Source: Clostridiales bacterium SIT11 (GTDB lineage Bacteria > Bacillota > Clostridia > Tissierellales > Peptoniphilaceae). Taken from it: DNA of 64,000 nt. This document shows, piece by piece, positions 45,268-64,000 of this stretch. Both the position numbers and the translations under genes were made by a program. The notes under the pieces were generated by a model. The model was given only the letters and a program-made list of their open reading frames with translations, did no database searches and was not told where the DNA came from. The stretch covers positions 1,488,001-1,552,000 of the forward strand of contig CYUK01000003.1 of the NCBI GenBank assembly GCA_001299455.1, given 5' to 3'. Each line of letters starts with the position of its first letter. The stretch's first letter is position 1.

Positions 45268-45454
45268 GAAAAAGCTCCGCAATGTCGTTTCTCCATTTAA
45301 TTCAGACCCGCCCTAAAATTAAGGTGGGTATCTTACTAACTGCCTCTAAAGTCCTCTCAAGGAGGCTTTTTATTACCAGCTAGACACAGATTCCCGTGTC
45401 TGAGATGTCGGTTGAATTATATGAAGTAGTTCGTGCACCGCAGAGCTATTCTAT
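45268..45454 (-). ncRNA. ssrS: 6S RNA candidate
   Basis: An RNA of about 187 bases between a consensus minus-strand promoter and a terminator, with no coding potential. It folds as a 6S-like rod. The ends form a 12-pair helix (AGCUCUGCGGUG with CAUUGCGGAGCU). Then come CUUCAU/AUGGAG and AAUUCA/UGAAUU, then a wide central bubble with side hairpins (AGACAC/GUGUCU and ACCC..CC/GG..GGGU), then a terminal arm (CUAGCUG/CAGUUAG, GCCUC/GAGGC). 6S RNA mimics an open promoter and sequesters housekeeping RNA polymerase. Identity rests on fold, size and promoter strength, not on a database match. Confidence 0.65.
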
Positions 45455-45831: not shown

Positions 45832-45870
45832 AGTTTAGAAAAAGAAATGGAAAAGGACAAGGAGGACGTC

Positions 45871-46794
45871 ATGAACTGTCTGTCTCATTTTATACGGCCA
45901 TCGGATTGGCAACAAAGTACATACGAAGAAAGCTTCAGACTAGCAGATCTTATTTTACAGGACCCGGGAAAGTATTCTCATTCTTGTGATGGTAAGGTCT
46001 TAGCTAGTCTTTTTTTTGAACCTTCAACCAGGACCCGGCTCTCTTTTGAAGCGGCCTTCCAACGGTTGGGGGGACGGGTAATTGGCTTTTCTGACCAGGG
46101 AAATACGTCTACAGCCAAGGGGGAAAGTCTGGAAGATACCCTTCGGATTGTTGAAGGTTATGTGGACTTAATTGTCATGCGCCACTTCTTGGAAGGGGCC
46201 GCCTACCTGGCCACCCAAACTTTGACCAAGGTTCCTGTGATTAATGCAGGCGATGGGTCCCACCAACATCCGACCCAAACTTTGACAGACCTCTACACCC
46301 TCCACCACTACCAAAAGTTGGGCAAGAACTTGACTATCGGTCTTTGTGGGGACCTACTTTTCGGGCGGACGGTTCACTCTTTAATTGAGGCCTTGGAAAT
46401 TTTTGGAGGCTGTCATTATGTTTGCATCGCGCCTAAGGACTTGGCTTTACCGGCTTATGTCCAAGAAAAGGTGAAAAAGGGAAAAATCACTTTTGTGGAA
46501 GATTTACAGGAAGTCATTGGAGACCTGGATGTCCTCTATATGACCCGGGTCCAAAAGGAACGCTTTGTTTCAGAGCAAGAGTATGAACGGCTCAAGGGCT
46601 ATTATATCCTAGACCAGGAAAAGATGGACAGGGCCAAAAAGGACATGCTGGTTATGCATCCCCTGCCTAGGGTGGTGGAAGTAGACCGGAAATTGGACAA
46701 GGATCCAAGGTTAATTTTCTTTAACCAGGCCCATCTTGGGATGTATGCACGGATGGCGTTAATGATGAAAACACTGGGGGTAAATCTTGATTAA
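45871..46794 (+). CDS. pyrB: Aspartate carbamoyltransferase catalytic subunit
   Basis: Condenses carbamoyl phosphate and aspartate, the second step of pyrimidine synthesis. 307 residues with FFEPSTRTRLSFEAAF (carbamoyl phosphate site), DGSHQHPTQTLTDLYT and MHPLPRVVEVD. The ATG at 45871 has AAGGAGGACGTC directly upstream; an ATG at 45847 has no such site. First gene of the pyr operon, overlapping pyrI by eight bases. Confidence 0.97.
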   Translation: MNCLSHFIRPSDWQQSTYEESFRLADLILQDPGKYSHSCDGKVLASLFFEPSTRTRLSFEAAFQRLGGRVIGFSDQGNTSTAKGESLEDTLRIVEGYVDLIVMRHFLEGAAYLATQTLTKVPVINAGDGSHQHPTQTLTDLYTLHHYQKLGKNLTIGLCGDLLFGRTVHSLIEALEIFGGCHYVCIAPKDLALPAYVQEKVKKGKITFVEDLQEVIGDLDVLYMTRVQKERFVSEQEYERLKGYYILDQEKMDRAKKDMLVMHPLPRVVEVDRKLDKDPRLIFFNQAHLGMYARMALMMKTLGVNLD

Positions 46795-47215
46795 TGTATC
46801 GAAAATACGGAAGGGTCTTGTCATTGACCATATTAAGGAGGGCCAGGGTTTTGTCCTCTACAAGCACTTAGGGCTGGACCATGTAGATGGCGTGGTGGTC
46901 CTGATGACAGGGATTTTAAGCGAAAAAATGGGGAAGAAGGACCTGATTAAGATTGAAACAGACTTTGACATTCCCATGGACCTGGTGGGTTTTTTTGCCA
47001 GCCAGTCCACAGTGAACTTTATTGAAGACGGCCAGGTGGTGAAAAAGGAAAAAATTGACTTGCCGGAAACTTTAGAAGATATTTTATCCTGCCCCAATCC
47101 TGCCTGTGTCAGCAACCACCAGGATGTGCCCACTCGCTTCCATTTGTTGGACAAGGAAAGGGCCCGGTATGGCTGTGCCTATTGTGACCAGGAAGTGGAA
47201 AGGGAAAGAATATGA
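46787..47215 (+). CDS. pyrI: Aspartate carbamoyltransferase regulatory subunit
   Basis: 142 residues with the nucleotide-binding allosteric domain (NVSKIRKGLVIDHIKEGQG) and a zinc domain whose cysteines lie in CPNPAC and CAYC. It holds catalytic trimers together and carries CTP/ATP control in the enteric enzyme. The start is TTG at 46787, inside the end of pyrB, after a GGGGG purine run. It overlaps pyrK by four bases. Confidence 0.95.
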   Translation: MINVSKIRKGLVIDHIKEGQGFVLYKHLGLDHVDGVVVLMTGILSEKMGKKDLIKIETDFDIPMDLVGFFASQSTVNFIEDGQVVKKEKIDLPETLEDILSCPNPACVSNHQDVPTRFHLLDKERARYGCAYCDQEVERERI

Positions 47216-47901
47216 AGGTCTTAAGACAGGATAAAATCAACGCCTCCACCTATGTTCTTTGGCTGGAGTCCAAGGAAAGGCCGGACCCGGGCCAATTTTA
47301 CATGGTCTATCCCAGGGATGGAGCCAAGCTTCTAGGTCGGCCCCTCTCCATCTTTGACTACCAGGAGGGGACCTTGGGGCTCTTGTATGAAGTCCGGGGG
47401 GAAGGAACTCGGGAGTTTACCGGCCTGGAAGAGGGGGATGAAATCCAAGTTCTGGGCCCCTATGGCCAGGGCTTCCATATAAAGGAAGAAAGATCTACAG
47501 CCTTTATTGCCGGGGGAGTGGGTCTGGCCCCCTTTGTCTACTTTTCTCGGTTCTTCAAGTCCCGGCCCAAGGTCTATTTTGGGACACAAAATGCCCAGGG
47601 TTATGAAGAATATTTAAGGGACTATAATCTGGGCCTGGAAATCCACCAGGGAGGTTATATTACAGACTATGTGGACTATGAGGCCTTTGACCAGTTTTAC
47701 ACTTGCGGCCCCCGGGTCATGATGGAAAAGGTCCTGGAGGACTGTATAAGTCATGACAAGGACCTGGAACTTTCCATGGAAGAGCGGATGGGTTGCGGTT
47801 TTGGGGCCTGCCTAGGCTGTTCCATAGAAACCTTGGCCGGCCAAAAGAGGGTCTGTAAGGAAGGGCCTGTATTTAGAAAAGAGGATTTTTTCCATGCTTG
47901 A
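47212..47901 (+). CDS. pyrK: Dihydroorotate dehydrogenase B electron transfer subunit
   Basis: 229-residue FAD and 2Fe-2S protein passing electrons from dihydroorotate oxidation to NAD. RPLSIFDYQEG (flavin binding), GGVGLAPFVYFSRF (NAD region) and cluster cysteines in GCGFGACLGCSIE and VCKEGPVF are visible. It overlaps pyrI and pyrD and forms a complex with PyrD type 1B. Confidence 0.95.
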   Translation: MKVLRQDKINASTYVLWLESKERPDPGQFYMVYPRDGAKLLGRPLSIFDYQEGTLGLLYEVRGEGTREFTGLEEGDEIQVLGPYGQGFHIKEERSTAFIAGGVGLAPFVYFSRFFKSRPKVYFGTQNAQGYEEYLRDYNLGLEIHQGGYITDYVDYEAFDQFYTCGPRVMMEKVLEDCISHDKDLELSMEERMGCGFGACLGCSIETLAGQKRVCKEGPVFRKEDFFHA

Positions 47902-48793
47902 AACAAAAATTGGCGATTATAGCTTAAAAAATCCCCTGATTACCGCTTCAGGGACCTATGGCTACGGGGAAGAGTACGAGGGCTTTTATGATCCCTCTAT
48001 TTTAGGGGCTATTGCCTCCAAGGGGATTACCTACATTCCAAAAAAGGGGAATACCGGCATCCGAGTCTGGGAAACTCCAGCTGGCATGATGAACTCCATT
48101 GGTCTGGAAAATCCCGGCGTGGACCACTTCTGCAAGGAAGAGTTTCCCAAGATGAAGAAATATAAGGTCCCTATTTTGGCCAACCTAGGGGGGAATACCC
48201 TGGAAGACTACTTAAAGGGAGTGGACCTTTTAAATGAAATTGATGTGGACTTTATTGAGCTCAATATTTCCTGTCCCAATGTGAAGGAAGGGGGCCTAGC
48301 CTTTGGCCTCAGCTGCCAATCCGCAGCCCGGGTCACGGGAGAGGTTGTGAAACGGGCCAAGCACCCGGTTATTGTCAAGCTCTCACCCAATGGAGAAAAT
48401 GTGGCGGACCTGGCGAAGAGCGTGGAAGCGGAAGGGGCCTATGGAGTCAGTTTAATCAATACGGTCCAGGCCATGGCCGTAGACGTGGACAAGAAAAAGA
48501 TTGTCTTTGACAATGTCTATGCCGGCCTTTCCGGGCCCTGTATTTTTCCCCTGGCTCTTCGGATGGTCCACCAGGTGGCCCAGGCCGTAAAGATTCCCGT
48601 CATTGGCATCGGGGGGATTGCTTCGGCAAAAGATGTCTTGGCCATGCTCATGGTGGGGGCCTCGGCCGTGGAAATAGGGACCATGAATTTCCATGACCCC
48701 TATTTAGTGCCCAAAATTTTAAAGGACTTAGAAGACTATTGCCAGGCAGAAAAAATTGACCACTTAAGCGAGATTATCGCTTGTTTACAATAA
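47894..48793 (+). CDS. pyrD: Dihydroorotate dehydrogenase, type 1B catalytic subunit
   Basis: 299-residue FMN TIM barrel oxidising dihydroorotate to orotate. NPLITASGTYGYGEEY, ELNISCPNVKEGG with the active-site cysteine region, and GIGGIASAKDVLAM for FMN phosphate are present. The partner pyrK just upstream makes it the NAD-linked type. Confidence 0.96.
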   Translation: MLETKIGDYSLKNPLITASGTYGYGEEYEGFYDPSILGAIASKGITYIPKKGNTGIRVWETPAGMMNSIGLENPGVDHFCKEEFPKMKKYKVPILANLGGNTLEDYLKGVDLLNEIDVDFIELNISCPNVKEGGLAFGLSCQSAARVTGEVVKRAKHPVIVKLSPNGENVADLAKSVEAEGAYGVSLINTVQAMAVDVDKKKIVFDNVYAGLSGPCIFPLALRMVHQVAQAVKIPVIGIGGIASAKDVLAMLMVGASAVEIGTMNFHDPYLVPKILKDLEDYCQAEKIDHLSEIIACLQ

Positions 48794-48803
48794 GGAGGAC
48801 GCA

Positions 48804-49844
48804 ATGAAAGCATATATCCAATTAGAAGATGGCAGCCTTTTTGAGGGACAAGCCTTTGGCTACCAAGGCCAGGATACGGTGGTGGGCGAACTCACCTACA
48901 ATACCTCCATGAATGGCCAGCAAGAAGTGTTGACAGACCCGGCCTACCGGGGGCAACTTTTAATTTTTACCTATCCCCTCCTGGGCTCCTATGGCTTCAA
49001 CCTGGAAGACGAAGAAAGTGAAGACATGCAAGTGGCTGGAATTGTCTGCCGGGAAAAAGTGGACCATCCCAACAACTTCCGCTATGAAATGAATGTGGAC
49101 GACTACTTAAACTACCATAAAATCCCTGGGATTACTGGAGTAGACACTAGGGCCCTCACCCGTTATCTCTTGGAAAATGGCCCCATGAAGGGGGTTATTA
49201 CCAAAAAACCCAAGACAGAATCGGAACTCAAGGCCATGATTGATGACTTGGACTTAAAAAATTCCATCTTCCAAGTGACCACACCAGAAGAGGTCTACTA
49301 TGAAGGACAAGGAAAAAGCGTGGCTATTTGGGACTTCGGCCTGAGAAGGTCTCTTTTAAACTTCTTCCGGTTGAGAGGATGTTCTGTCACCCTTTATCCT
49401 GCCCAAACCAACTATGAACGTATCCTAGACAAGGGCCACGACCTTCTCATTCTCTCCTCTGGCCCAGGAAATCCCAGCATGGCCCAGGATATTATTGCCG
49501 ATATTGAACAACTTCTTGGGAAAATTGACCTGGTAGGCATTGGTCTAGGAGCCCAACTTCTGGCCAGGGCCTTGGGGTGTGGCATCCAAAAGGTAGCAGG
49601 TCACAAGGGCTATGAGCCGATTTTAGACAAGGAAACCGGAGAAATTAAGGCCTCCTACCAAAATTATTCCTATGGCCTGACGGATGAAAAAAAGATTGTC
49701 CGGACCTTTGAAAATTTAAGAGATGCAACCACAGCCGGCTTTAAGGCCAAGGACTACCCGGCCTGGGGCTACCTCTTCCAAGCAGAGGAGAATCCAAAAG
49801 AAGGCCACTTAAACTATATCCTAGAAGAAAGAATTGGAGGCTGA
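48804..49844 (+). CDS. carA: Carbamoyl phosphate synthase small subunit, glutaminase triad lost
   Basis: 346 residues clearly of the CarA family: N-terminal domain with [17 protein letters not shown] and [13 protein letters not shown], and a class I amidotransferase-like C-terminal domain. The nucleophile motif, normally GICLGHQ, reads GIGLGAQ: cysteine is glycine (residue 247) and histidine is alanine (250). The catalytic histidine of the usual YHPEA is glutamine at 326, in LFQAEE; the glutamate is kept. The usual SQNHGF reads YQNYSY. The frame is intact, so this looks like a retained structural subunit that cannot hydrolyse glutamine. The synthetase would then use free ammonia, as animal CPS I does after losing its cysteine. 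AAGGAGG precedes the ATG. Confidence 0.93.
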
Positions 49845-49845
49845 A

Positions 49846-52800
49846 ATGGGACAATTTAAAGATGTAAAAAAAGTACTTGTATTGGGGTCCGGCCCAATTG
49901 TCATAGGCCAAGGGGCAGAATTTGACTATTCCGGCAACCAAGCCTGCCAAACCTTGAAAGACCATGGCCTGGAAGTGGTCTTAATTAACTCCAACCCAGC
50001 CACCATTATGACCGACCAAGGCATGGCTGATAAAATCTACATTGAGCCCATGACCATAGACGTGGTGGAAAAAATTATTGCCAAGGAAAAACCGGACCAT
50101 TTGATTCCTGGCATGGGAGGACAAACGGGCCTGAACCTGGCTATGGACCTCCATGAAAAGAAGATTTTGGAACAATATGGGGTCAAGGTCCTGGGAACCC
50201 CCATTGAAGGCATTAAGAAGGGGGAAGACCGGGAACTTTTCCGGGAACTCATGGAAGAAATTCATGAACCTCTGATTCCCTCTAAGACAGTAGAAGACCT
50301 CCAAGACGCTTTAGACTATGCAGAAGAACTGGGCTATCCTGTGGTTGTCCGGCCGGCCTTTACCCTGGGAGGAACTGGAGGCGGTATTGCCCAAAGCAAG
50401 GAAGATTTGATTGAAATCGCCACAGGAGGCCTCCACCGGTCCCGGGTCCACCAAGTCCTCATTGAAAAATGTATTACCGGCTGGAAGGAAATTGAATTTG
50501 AAGTCATCCGGGACCATGAAGGCAATAAGATTGTCGTTTGCTCCATGGAAAATATCGATCCTGTAGGGGTCCATACGGGGGACTCCATTGTTGTGGCCCC
50601 CACCCAAACCTTGAGTCCTGTGGAATACAAGATGCTGGTGGATTCTGCCTTCCGAATTATAGATGCCGTAGGAATTGAAGGGGGCTGTAATGTCCAATTT
50701 GCCCTCCATCCCACTTCCTTAAAATATGCAGTCATTGAAATTAACCCCCGGGTCAGCCGGTCCTCGGCCCTGGCTTCCAAGGCTACAGGCTATCCCATTG
50801 CCCGAGTGGCCACCAACATTGCCCTGGGCTACCGTCTAGATGAAATTGAAAACCGGATTACTAAAAAGACCACAGCGGCCTTTGAACCGGTTATTGACTA
50901 TGTCGTGGTGAAAATTCCAAAATGGCCCTTTGATAAATTCTACAATGCCAAGAGACAATTGGGAACGAAGATGATGGCCACAGGGGAAGTTATGGCCATT
51001 GGAAACTCCTTCCAAGCCGCCCTTTTAAAGGGCCTCCGGTCTTTGGAAATTGGAAAGTTCAGCCTGGAACACGAATCTTTAAAGGAAAAATCCCTCCAAG
51101 AACTGAAAAAAGAGGTATTGTCTCCCTCAGATGAGCGGCTCTTTGTTCTGGCAGAACTCTTGCGCCGGGGTTATTCCATTAAACGTCTGGGCCTGGAAAC
51201 AGGGATTGATGAATTCTTCCTCTATGAAATTTCAGATATTGTCCAAACAGAAACAAAATTAAAGGCCATGACCAAGGACGACTTAACAGAAGCCAACCTC
51301 CGAGACCTGAAGAGACGGGGCTTTTCCGATGTGGCCATTGGAAATTTCCTCGGTGTCAGCCCCAAGTTTATTTATGAACTCCGGAAGCTCCACAAGATTA
51401 CCGCTTCCTTTAAGGGTGTAGACACCTGTGCCGGGTCCATTTTAATCGATTCCCCCTACATGTACTCCACCTATGACCAAGTCTCAGAAGAAAAGAAGGT
51501 GGACAAGAAGGGGAAAAAAGTCCTGGTTATAGGGTCCGGTCCCATCCGGATTGGCCAAGGGATTGAATTTGACTACTGCTGCGTCCACTGTGTTCAAACT
51601 TTGAACAAGCTGGGCTATGAAACGATTTTAATGAACAACAACCCAGAAACAGTATCTACAGACTTTGACCTGGCAGATAAGCTCTACTTTGAACCCCTGA
51701 CCATTGAAGACACCCTCAATGTCATTGACCAAGAAGAACCGGACGGAGTCATCCTCCAATTTGGGGGACAAACAGCCATTAAGCTGGCAGACTTCTTCAA
51801 GGAAACAGGAATTCCCATTTGGGGGACCAATCCAGATGCCATTGACCGGGCAGAAGACCGGGAACGCTTTGATGAACTCCTGGAAGACCTGAATATCCTA
51901 AGACCCAAGGGCCACGGCGTTTGGTCTACAGAAGAAGGGAAGAAGATAGCAGAAAACTTAGGCTATCCTGTCCTGGTCCGGCCATCCTATGTCCTAGGGG
52001 GCCAAGGCATGGAAATTTGCTATGGGGAAAAACAATTGGCCTATTATTGTGACCGGGCCTTTGACAAGGACCCAAAAAATCCCATCCTCATTGACCAATA
52101 TATTGACGGCATGGAAATTGAAGTGGACGCCCTTTGCGACGGAGAAGACATCTTAGTCCCCGGCATTATGGAACACTTGGAAAGAGCCGGTATCCACTCC
52201 GGAGACTCCATCTCCATCTACCCGACCAAGGATATTTCCAAGGAAAAGAAGGAAGAAATTGTTGAAGAAACCAAAAAGATTGCCCTCAACCTGGGGGTTA
52301 TCGGCTTGGTGAACATCCAATATATCCTAAAGAACGACCAACTCTATATTATTGAAGTGAACCCCCGGTCCTCCCGGACAGTTCCCTACCTGTCCAAGGT
52401 AACCACCATCCCCATGGTGGATGTGGCCACTCAACTGATTCTTGGGGAAAAATTAAAAGACCTTCCCTATGGGACCGGCCTCTATCCAGAAGGTAAGTTA
52501 ATTTGTGCCAAGATTCCTGTCTTTTCTACAGATAAACTCCAACAAGTGGAAGCAGGACTGGGGCCGGAAATGCGGTCTACCGGAGAAAACTTGGGTGTAG
52601 GCCTGAGCCGGGAAGAAGCCCTGGCCAAGGGCTTTGTCGCCACAGGCATGGACCTTTCCAATAAAAAACGCCGGGTCCTAGTAACCCTAGGAGACAAGGA
52701 CAAGGAGGAATTAAAAGACTCCATCCTAGTCATGAAGGACCTGGGCTACAGCTTTGCCGCAACGGAAAATACCAAGGCCTTCTTGGAAGACCTGGGAATC

Positions 52801-53070
52801 CAGGCAGAACACATCCGGAAGATTGGGGAAGCCTACCCCACCATCCTAGATGAAATTAAGGAAGGAAAGTTTGACCTGGTTATTAACACCCCCACCAAGG
52901 GTGGCGATGCCAAGAGAGACGGCTTTATGATTCGCCGGGCCGCCATCGAATCCGATGTGGAACTTTTGAGTAACGTAGACAAGGCCAAGGCCCTAGTGGA
53001 AATCCTCCAAGAAAACACCTTGAAGGAAGGAATTGACCTCTATGAACTCAATGACTTTGGCAAGTATTAA
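49846..53070 (+). CDS. carB: Carbamoyl phosphate synthase large subunit
   Basis: 1074 residues with two ATP-grasp halves: [20 protein letters not shown] and [20 protein letters not shown] start the paired carboxyphosphate and carbamoyl phosphate domains, GGTGGGIAQ and GGQGMEICY mark the grasp loops, and an MGS-like allosteric domain ends the protein. The ATG at 49846 follows GGAGG, one base after the carA stop; a TTG twelve bases earlier is not needed. It makes carbamoyl phosphate for pyrB, probably from ammonia given carA. Confidence 0.97.
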
Positions 53071-61230: not shown

Positions 61231-61726
61231 GGGAAGGGCAAGTGATTTAAAAGCCGCCGGAGAAATTTACGACCAAGCCAGAAAAAGACTTAAGATTATG
61301 GGCGTGGACCAGTGGCAGGGCCCCTATCCAGGAGGAGGGGACTTTTTAGAAGATGTAAAAAAAGGCCGGTCTTTCGTCTGGGAAGATGGAGAGGGAATTT
61401 TTGCCTTGGCGGCCTTGATTCTGGGAAAGGAACCCAGCTATGAAAAAATTCAAGGGGCCTGGAAGGGGGCGGATGCCTATGAAACCATCCACCGAATTGC
61501 CCTCCATGACCGGGTCCTTGGACGAGGGGAAGCTAAAAAACTTTTCCAAGACCTGGAAGAGGAAGCAGGAAAGAGGGTGGATTTTATCCGAATTGACACC
61601 CATGAGGACAATAAAATTATGCAGGGCTTGCTAAGAAAATTGGACTATGAATACGCTGGAATTATTGAACTTCCAGACGGAAGTCCCCGCTTGGCTTTTG
61701 AAAAAAGACTAGGAGGAGAAAAATGA
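61220..61726 (+). CDS. GNAT family N-acetyltransferase
   Basis: 168 residues with the GNAT layout: IHRIALHDRVLGRGEAKKLF gives the acetyl-CoA loop (variant of Q/RxxGxG/A), and IRIDTHEDNKIMQGLLRKLD the following strand and helix. Start overlaps sfsA, end overlaps cobB by four bases. Acceptor unknown. Confidence 0.8.
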   Translation: MMRRGRASDLKAAGEIYDQARKRLKIMGVDQWQGPYPGGGDFLEDVKKGRSFVWEDGEGIFALAALILGKEPSYEKIQGAWKGADAYETIHRIALHDRVLGRGEAKKLFQDLEEEAGKRVDFIRIDTHEDNKIMQGLLRKLDYEYAGIIELPDGSPRLAFEKRLGGEK

Positions 61727-63099
61727 ATCGGATTATGCTTGCCGCCATGGCGTCCAACTCAGGCAAGACCAGCCTGATGATGGCCCTTTTGGCCGGCTAC
61801 CTAGAAAAAGGAATAGATATCCGGTCCTTTAAAACAGGGCCGGACTATATTGACCCCATGTTCCATGAAAAAATTTTAGGTCTCAGTTCCAGGAACCTGG
61901 ACCCCTATATGATGGACAAAGACTTGATTTGCCACCTGATTTCCAAAGATCCTGGCGACTTGGCCCTCATTGAAGGGGTTATGGGCTACTATGATGGGAT
62001 TGGGTCTGGGACCGACGGGTCCAGCTACAGCCTGGCCCAGATGACCAAGACGCCGGTGGTCCTCGTTCTAAAACCCAAGGGAATTGCCGCCAGTCTAGGG
62101 GCTCAAGTCCAGGGCATGGTAAATTTTAAAAAAGACAGTAACATTAAAGGCGTCATCTTAAACGGCCTGAGCTCCATGATGTATGCCTACTATAAAAAAA
62201 TCATTGAAGACAATACTGGCCTCAAGGTTTATGGCTACTTAAAACAAATGGACCATTCCCTGGAAAGCCGCCACCTAGGCCTTATTACAGCTGACGAAGT
62301 GGAGGACTTAAAGGACCTCATTAGGGAATACGGGGAAGAGGCCCTAAAAACTATTGACCTGGAAGGCCTCATGGCCCTGGCCAGTACAGCCCCGGACCTG
62401 GAAGACCACTATAGAGAACCGGAAAAAATTGCCCCTGTCCGCCTTGCCTTGGCCCGGGACCTGGCTTATAGTTTTTACTACCAGGACGGCTTAGATTATT
62501 TACGGAATCTAGGGGCCGATTTGCTGGAATTTTCTCCCTTAAAAGATGAACCGGTGCCGGAAGGAGTCCATGGTCTCTACCTAGGGGGAGGATATCCGGA
62601 GGTTTATATTGAAAAATTGTCCAAGAACCAAAACTTTCTGAACTCCCTTCGGAAGGCCCATAGGGACAATTTGCCCATCTTTGCAGAGTGCGGTGGCTTT
62701 ATGACTCTGTTTGAAAATTTCAAGGGAGAGGACAAGACCTATCCCCTGGCCGGCTTAATCCAAGGGTCTTGCTGGATGACAGACCGCCTCCAACATTTTG
62801 GTTATATTGATTTAGAAGCCCAGGAGGACTGCTTAATTGCCTCCAAGGGAGACCATATTCGGGCCCATGAATTCCACTACTCCACCAGTAGTGTTCTGGG
62901 AGAGACCTTTCAAGGGAAAAAACCCCAGAGCAAGAGGGGGTGGTCGGCCTTTGTGAGCCAGGGCAACCTTTGTGGAGGCTACCCTCACATTCATTTAATG
63001 GCCAATCCCAAGGCGGCTAGGAAGTTTGTTGAACACATGAGAGACTATAAGGAGATGACAGATGGCAAAGGCAATGATGGTCCTGGGGACCACAAGTAA
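61723..63099 (+). CDS. cobB: Cobyrinate a,c-diamide synthase
   Basis: Glutamine- and ATP-dependent amidation of the a and c carboxylates of cobyrinate (CbiA/CobB). 458 residues: ATPase half starting IMLAAMASNSGKTSLMMALL with KTGPDYIDPMFHEK, and a class I amidotransferase half with the nucleophile in FAECGGFMTL. The glutaminase cysteine is intact here, unlike in carA. Its end overlaps cobQ by 38 bases. Confidence 0.95.
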   Translation: MNRIMLAAMASNSGKTSLMMALLAGYLEKGIDIRSFKTGPDYIDPMFHEKILGLSSRNLDPYMMDKDLICHLISKDPGDLALIEGVMGYYDGIGSGTDGSSYSLAQMTKTPVVLVLKPKGIAASLGAQVQGMVNFKKDSNIKGVILNGLSSMMYAYYKKIIEDNTGLKVYGYLKQMDHSLESRHLGLITADEVEDLKDLIREYGEEALKTIDLEGLMALASTAPDLEDHYREPEKIAPVRLALARDLAYSFYYQDGLDYLRNLGADLLEFSPLKDEPVPEGVHGLYLGGGYPEVYIEKLSKNQNFLNSLRKAHRDNLPIFAECGGFMTLFENFKGEDKTYPLAGLIQGSCWMTDRLQHFGYIDLEAQEDCLIASKGDHIRAHEFHYSTSSVLGETFQGKKPQSKRGWSAFVSQGNLCGGYPHIHLMANPKAARKFVEHMRDYKEMTDGKGNDGPGDHK

Positions 63100-64000
63100 T
63101 GCAGGGAAAAGTTTACTGACTGCGGCCCTGGTCCGGATATTTACCAAAAAAGGCTACAAGGTAGCTCCCTTTAAGGCCCAAAATATGGCCTTAAATTCTT
63201 TTATCACCAAGGATGGCAAGGAAATGGGCCGGGCCCAGGTGGTCCAGGCAGAAGCTGGAGGCATTGAGCCGGATGTGCGGATGAACCCTATCCTCCTGAA
63301 GCCAACTAGCGACCGGAAGAGCCAGGTCATTGTCCTGGGCAAGGTCTATAAGACCTTAGATGCCAAGGAGTACTATAAGGAAAAGGAAAAACTCTTTCCT
63401 AAAGTTTTGGAGGCTTTTGACTCCTTAAAAAAAGACTACGACATTATTTTTTGTGAAGGGGCCGGCAGTCCTTCAGAAATTAACTTAAAGGACCAGGATA
63501 TGGTCAACATGGGCTTTGCCAAGGCCACCAAGACCCCCTGTCTTATTGTAGGGGACATTGACCGGGGTGGCGTCTTTGCTTCCCTGGCAGGGACCATGGT
63601 CCTATTTGACCAGGAGGAAAGGGACCTGGTGGAAGGTTTTATTATTAACAAGTTCCGGGGAGATCCCTCCATTCTGGAGCCGGGCCTTCGAGAATTGGAA
63701 AAGATTACTGAAAAAAAAGTCTTGGGATTGGTCCCCTATTTAGACGTAGATATTGAAGATGAAGATTCTCTTTCAGACCATATCAATGCCTTTAAAAAAG
63801 AAGGAAGGGTTCAAATTGCTGTGGTCAAAACACCGCGGCTCTCCAATGCCACAGACTTCCATGCCCTGTCCATCCATCCTGACGTGGACTTGACCTATGC
63901 CACAAGAGCCCAGGACCTAGTTAAGGCCGATATGATCCTCCTTCCAGGGTCTAAGTCCACCATGGAAGATTTTAAATGGATGAAAAAACAAGGGATTGAT
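63062..64000 (+). CDS. cobQ: Cobyric acid synthase, 3' end cut by window
   Basis: Amidates carboxylates b, d, e and g of adenosylcobyrinate diamide. The 313 residues in the window start MAKAMMVLGTTSNAGKSLL, with FKAQNMALNSF, DIIFCEGAGSPSEINL and GDIDRGGVFASLAGT, all CobQ hallmarks, and run into the amidotransferase half at the edge (LLPGSKSTMEDF). The frame is open to the last base. Confidence 0.95.
   Translation, partial: MAKAMMVLGTTSNAGKSLLTAALVRIFTKKGYKVAPFKAQNMALNSFITKDGKEMGRAQVVQAEAGGIEPDVRMNPILLKPTSDRKSQVIVLGKVYKTLDAKEYYKEKEKLFPKVLEAFDSLKKDYDIIFCEGAGSPSEINLKDQDMVNMGFAKATKTPCLIVGDIDRGGVFASLAGTMVLFDQEERDLVEGFIINKFRGDPSILEPGLRELEKITEKKVLGLVPYLDVDIEDEDSLSDHINAFKKEGRVQIAVVKTPRLSNATDFHALSIHPDVDLTYATRAQDLVKADMILLPGSKSTMEDFKWMKKQGID

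Follow-up and report, generated by a model that had tools for sequence, protein, structure and literature searches.

Animal carbamoyl phosphate synthetase I (CPS I) is ammonia-specific and NAG-dependent and serves the urea cycle, and its small and large moieties are fused in one chain. In human CPS1 (PDB 5dot/5dou), the catalytic cysteine of the glutaminase domain is replaced by Ser294 and the old tunnel is blocked by Gln318 at the position of E. coli Gly293; the inactive domain is retained as a fold, and external ammonia is used, perhaps by an interface path (PMC4655335). The E. coli CarAB enzyme is of the glutamine-hydrolysing type (CPS II), which relies on a Cys-His-Glu triad, and a 2018 review names glutamine as its physiological nitrogen donor and extends this to all bacterial enzymes. 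Ammonia can also serve the E. coli CPSase, although the levels needed are very high and likely unphysiological (PMC6245113), and blocking or perforating the glutamine tunnel of the E. coli enzyme left variants that show normal activity on external ammonia (PMC4655335). Non-standard carbamoyl phosphate synthesis is also known from prokaryotes: the small CPS of Methanobrevibacter smithii is a 41-kDa single-unit enzyme and the Pyrococcus CPS has the carbamate kinase fold (PMC6022934), whereas the enzyme described here combines a full-length CarB with an inactive CarA. No earlier report of a bacterial CarA without its cysteine was found in the open-licence literature, and an earlier report elsewhere is possible.

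The window, i.e., the whole 64,000-nucleotide stretch of the Clostridiales bacterium SIT11 genome that was analysed, carries six genes on its forward strand in the order pyrB-pyrI-pyrK-pyrD-carA-carB. They encode aspartate carbamoyltransferase (pyrB, 45847..46794; TIGR00670, 324 bits, and the single PF02729 match in the genome), its regulatory chain (pyrI, 46787..47215; PF01948 and PF02748), the electron-transfer subunit of dihydroorotate dehydrogenase (pyrK, 47212..47901; PF10418, and NF000798 at 204 bits), the catalytic subunit of the same enzyme (pyrD, 47894..48793; PF01180, and NF005574 at 381 bits), and the small and large CPS subunits. A full pyr operon, as the original prediction had it, is too strong a description because pyrC, pyrE, and pyrF are not adjacent to this cluster. 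A 6S RNA (Rfam RF00013, 77.7 bits against a gathering score of 46.4) occupies positions 45270-45449 of the minus strand, just upstream of pyrB and on the opposite strand. Cobalamin genes occupy the end of the window: the forward strand encodes the cobyrinic acid a,c-diamide synthase CobB (61723-63099), followed from about position 63917 by a frame resembling cobyric acid synthase.

With E. coli CarAB, the window enzyme shares the carA-carB pair, the PF00988, PF00117, and CPSase large-subunit domains, and a pyrimidine operon. The carA frame (48804..49844, forward strand) runs from the ATG at 48804 to a TGA ending at 49844 and gives 346 amino acids with no internal stop, as had been predicted. 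Both of its domains score above their cut-offs (PF00988, 146.4 bits; PF00117, 58.5 bits), as does the protein against the general CarA model NF009475, but it falls below the cut-off of the "glutamine-hydrolyzing" equivalog TIGR01368 (269.4 versus 307.35 bits). A match to snoZ163 within carA was below the gathering score and was taken as chance. Alignment with chain B of the E. coli structures 1c30 and 1cs0 places Gly247 (codon GGT, 49542..49544) at the position of the nucleophile Cys269 and Ala250 at that of His272, the motif reading GIGLGAQ, whereas Gln326 (codon CAA, 49779..49781), in the motif LFQAEE, occupies the position of the catalytic His353. All three substitutions had been read from the sequence beforehand, and the alignment and the codons bear them out. 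The triad glutamate, which the original prediction did not mention, is retained two residues past Gln326 (Glu328, E. coli Glu355), so that two of the three residues of the glutamine-hydrolysing triad are gone.

A further departure from E. coli, likewise absent from the original prediction, lies at residues 331-333 (PKE; 49794..49802), the position of the E. coli CarA loop PGP 358-360, which forms part of the tunnel wall, a role tied to G359 mutants and to perforated-tunnel variants (PMC4655335). This loop is lost in the window's genus, although G359 and P360 are present in all 145 live CarAs (those of other lineages, which also retain Cys, His, and Glu in 145/145 cases); these were picked by similarity to the dead query and are therefore a sample, not a census. 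The window CarA thus carries at once the equivalents of two kinds of change made separately in E. coli CarA, C269S (PDB 1c30) and G359F (PDB 1m6v); those were laboratory mutants of a glutamine enzyme, whereas the window lineage has been naturally selected.

The genome (1.76 Mb in three contigs, rated 100% complete) contains one CarA and one CarB, and a search of the whole genome found no second carA, the check that the original prediction had proposed. The second species of the window's genus (68-69% identity) has the same Cys-to-Gly change. The prediction had also asked whether the loss was clade-wide, and it is: the PF00988 profile detects CarA in 18 of the family's 130 genomes, and the nucleophile is Gly in all 18 and Cys in none. 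CarB is found in 34 of the 130, namely these 18 and 16 more in which no carA was detected anywhere by profile, and the remaining 96 lack any CPS. Sequencing error, a pseudogene, or a chance variant is ruled out by the recurrence of Cys-to-Gly in all 18 carA genes together with strong purifying selection. Elsewhere in the order, the CarAs that were read keep the triad except for three, drawn from two further families: G244 (GIGLGNE) and the pair G145 (GIALGHQ) and G146 (GISLGHQ), which share one family and have Ala or Ser at the nucleophile (L100 and L101); human CPS1 likewise has Ser where L101 does. The best 28 matches among other Clostridia have the full triad in 28 of 28 cases, and so do 79 of 80 CarAs from named genomes of many phyla, the exception being a Mailhella metagenome-assembled genome (Desulfovibrionaceae, goat colon), whose CarA (L202:4001-5023) reads GVGLGHQ and has lost the catalytic His. 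Overall, the nucleophile position in the 22 dead CarAs is Gly in 20, Ala in one, and Ser in one, and is never Cys.

Trees were built from CarA, with the active-site columns masked, and from CarB, and they agree in the main on where the glutaminase-less lineages fall. The window belongs to a group of 14 that is either sister to the live family f57 or nested in it; the trio G057/G059/G068 groups with Bacillus-type enzymes, and G061, which lies near this trio on the CarB tree, may share its loss (support 60 to 93); and the carB-only group is placed on the CarB tree with live Peptostreptococcaceae-type enzymes. The G145/G146 pair sits inside a family whose remaining members are live, and G244 and Mailhella are each separate. 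On the CarB trees, the family's glutaminase-less enzymes fall into three or more gene lineages, each having live sisters. The AU test rules out a single ancestral loss in the family: one origin is rejected at p 0.0002 when every CPS of the family is included and at p 0.0017 when only its enzymes with a dead CarA are. Together, the placements and rejections indicate at least five separate losses of the cysteine plus one loss of carA, the Mailhella CarA having been inactivated independently.

Loss of the catalytic residues has not been followed by decay of the subunit. In close pairs, dN/dS is 0.05-0.11 for the glutaminase (GATase) domain, 0.04-0.07 for the CarA N-terminal domain, and 0.03-0.07 for CarB; the distant pair L002/L003 approaches saturation. 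Modelled with AlphaFold2 (mean pLDDT 94.7), the window CarA superimposes on E. coli CarA (1cs0_B) with Z 46 and an rmsd of 1.8 Å over 341 residues, and on human CPS1 with Z 43.7. Low dN/dS and the E. coli-like predicted fold mark the dead CarA as a retained, folded protein and not a relic. The fold match and the loss of the same cysteine make the parallel with mammalian CPS I, drawn in the original prediction, an apt one.

A subunit kept without its chemistry might have had its pocket recruited to a new use, for example to bind glutamine or a small molecule as a signal, with ammonia supply a secondary matter. Some of the old glutamine site does survive: Asn287 and Gly220 are invariant in every CarA, live or dead, and 17 of the 22 dead ones have Gln251. 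However, pocket positions 313, 353, and 355 (E. coli numbering) vary widely among the dead CarAs, and the existence of a carB-only clade means that the pocket can be dispensed with. We consider such a recruitment very unlikely as the main explanation of the locus, although as an added role it could coexist with the ammonia-dependent synthetase that we favor.

Most conserved residues of the large subunit are retained. carB (49846..53070, forward strand; TIGR01369, 1438 bits) immediately follows carA, starts at the ATG at 49846 or, alternatively, at a TTG at 49834, and is the only CPS large-subunit gene in the genome, PF02787 also having a single match. The ammonia gate, located by alignment with CPS1 Cys648, Ala667, and Ala729 (PMC4655335), is retained as Cys236/Ala255/Ala317 (numbered from the TTG start), and the gate residues (E. 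coli Cys232, Ala251, and Ala314) are kept throughout the dead lineages. What has changed is a loop, VDTCxxEF, within residues 527-541 (51412..51456; the count again begins at the TTG), which is conserved where CarA is live and differs from E. coli in the window. A set of 64 live CarBs defines 264 conserved columns, and the majority residue of the main dead group differs at only three of these, all of them in 527-541, whereas live CarBs in a leave-one-out comparison average 0.05 departures in this segment; the window CarB itself departs at eight of the 264, six of them outside the loop. Six lineages that lack a working glutaminase were compared, and four of them have an altered loop: besides the main group, it is deleted or rewritten in the carB-only group and changed in G061 and Mailhella, whereas it is unchanged in the Bacillus-type trio and in G145/G146. 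CPS1 retains the Asp-Thr and Ala-Ala-Glu of the loop that the window's lineage has changed. In E. coli, the domain spanning 401-552, together with the carboxyphosphate domain, contacts the small subunit (PMC6245113), and we infer that 527-541 helps to couple CarB to the glutaminase. Because the segment was spotted after the scan, the clustering of changes within it is a lead with support rather than the outcome of a planned test.

Glutamine dependence could also persist if either subunit, CarB or the dead CarA, were the docking site of another cellular glutaminase that supplied ammonia in trans. Other class I amidotransferases are indeed encoded in the genome (GuaA, PyrG, and the cobyric-acid-synthase-like frame), but GuaA and PyrG each carry a synthetase domain in the same chain, no additional stand-alone PF00117 glutaminase was matched in the genome, and the change of the CarB loop alongside the loss points to a complex that has adapted and not to a swapped partner; this arrangement appears slightly less likely still than a recruited pocket. 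GuaA and PyrG retain their triads (Cys and HPE motifs), so glutaminases have not been lost across the board here. The genome also encodes a glutamine synthetase, leaving a loss of glutamine synthesis unsupported as the driver; the change is thus specific to the CPS enzyme. Five dead-carA genomes (G059, G061, G068, G071, and G089) are not among the glutamine synthetase matches.

The destination of the product can be narrowed from gene content. In profile searches, PyrB is the sole carbamoyltransferase detected in the window genome, and carbamate kinase has no full-length match there, the best being a weak partial one (E 3.4e-6). CarAB is thus the only carbamoyl phosphate source found in this gene inventory, and, with no other carbamoyltransferase or full-length carbamate kinase detected, its product would be used by PyrB for pyrimidines, the only known use. 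Across the family, full-length carbamate kinase is found in 92 of the 96 genomes without CPS versus 2 of the 34 with it; the corresponding Fisher p of 1e-23 is overstated because the genomes are related. The pattern looks like a swap of one carbamoyl phosphate source for another, and the CPS-less species may draw carbamoyl phosphate for pyrimidines from carbamate kinase or ornithine carbamoyltransferase. Among the 16 carB-only genomes, 11 neighborhoods were examined (L103-L113, from G110, G122, G113, G119, G109, G019, G022, G114, G116, G115, and G117), and none has pyr-operon genes beside carB. In all eight carB-only genomes tested, from genera g37 and g3 (G110, G122, G113, G114, G117, and G116, with G019 and G022 representing g3), PyrB scored above the TIGR00670 cut-off, and a CarB without any glutaminase therefore appears to feed pyrimidine synthesis in these sister genera.

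Least likely of all is that CarAB is non-functional and decaying in cells dependent on imported pyrimidines, as the missing catalytic residues and the 96 CPS-less genomes might suggest, because both CarA domains have dN/dS values well under 1 that resemble those of CarB, the operon and the CarB gate are retained, and the carbamate kinase distribution resembles an exchange of sources.

We are thus confident, if short of certain, that the window CarAB is a synthetase dependent on ammonia whose pseudo-glutaminase is structural, a parallel to animal CPS I; the use of ammonia is deduced from sequence. With the nucleophile and the general base missing, CarA can, judged by its sequence, no longer hydrolyse glutamine, and its predicted fold and purifying selection show that it has been kept as a folded partner of CarB; its role is probably structural or regulatory and may include a route of ammonia entry. 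CarB, with its gate and nearly all conserved residues kept, would by the chemistry of its family combine ammonia and bicarbonate into carbamoyl phosphate at the cost of two ATP, and PyrB, encoded upstream in the same cluster, would take this product into pyrimidines only. Entry through the old CarA pocket is a possibility because Gly269 of the window CarA, at the position of E. coli Gly293 (Gly in 19 of the 22 dead CarAs), is retained where the tunnel block lies in CPS1. The window enzyme is encoded by two genes, whereas CPS I is a single chain, and it is functionally parallel to CPS I without being a member of that class. Given the high ammonia need of the E. coli CPSase, either a better affinity or an ammonia-rich habitat has to be assumed for the window enzyme. 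The switch evolved several times in parallel within the family, probably because its surroundings are ammonia-rich, and one clade later dispensed with carA entirely. The gene ald, which the original prediction had placed in the same window, is there (TIGR00518 match).

The original observation therefore stands and its interpretation is supported; the finding reaches further than the prediction did, since the loss extends through the whole family and has recurred. The single sequence could not have revealed the parallel losses, the clade that dropped carA, the accompanying CarB loop change in one lineage, or the purifying selection on the dead subunit. Belief and doubt seem to us about evenly matched for a broader proposal, that ammonia-dependent CPS is a recurrent bacterial type. 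It would comprise at least five to six independent glutaminase losses (three in one family), a conserved pseudo-glutaminase acting as a possible ammonia port or regulatory clamp, a parallel remodelling or deletion of the CarB loop VDTCxxEF that marks glutamine coupling, and a family in which no genome examined has a glutamine-dependent CPS.

Having lost the glutamine-cleaving part, the members of this family with the standard enzyme very probably build their pyrimidines from free ammonia. The family genomes contradict the extension of glutamine as nitrogen donor to all bacterial enzymes, and the annotation "glutamine-hydrolyzing" is wrong for the whole family. The route of the animal urea-cycle enzyme would have been taken several times in bacteria, providing natural replicates of lost ammonia channelling, in which it can now be tested how a glutaminase subunit benefits its synthase beyond supplying ammonia and which changes a synthase needs in order to work on free ammonia; the CarB loop is a concrete candidate coupling element.
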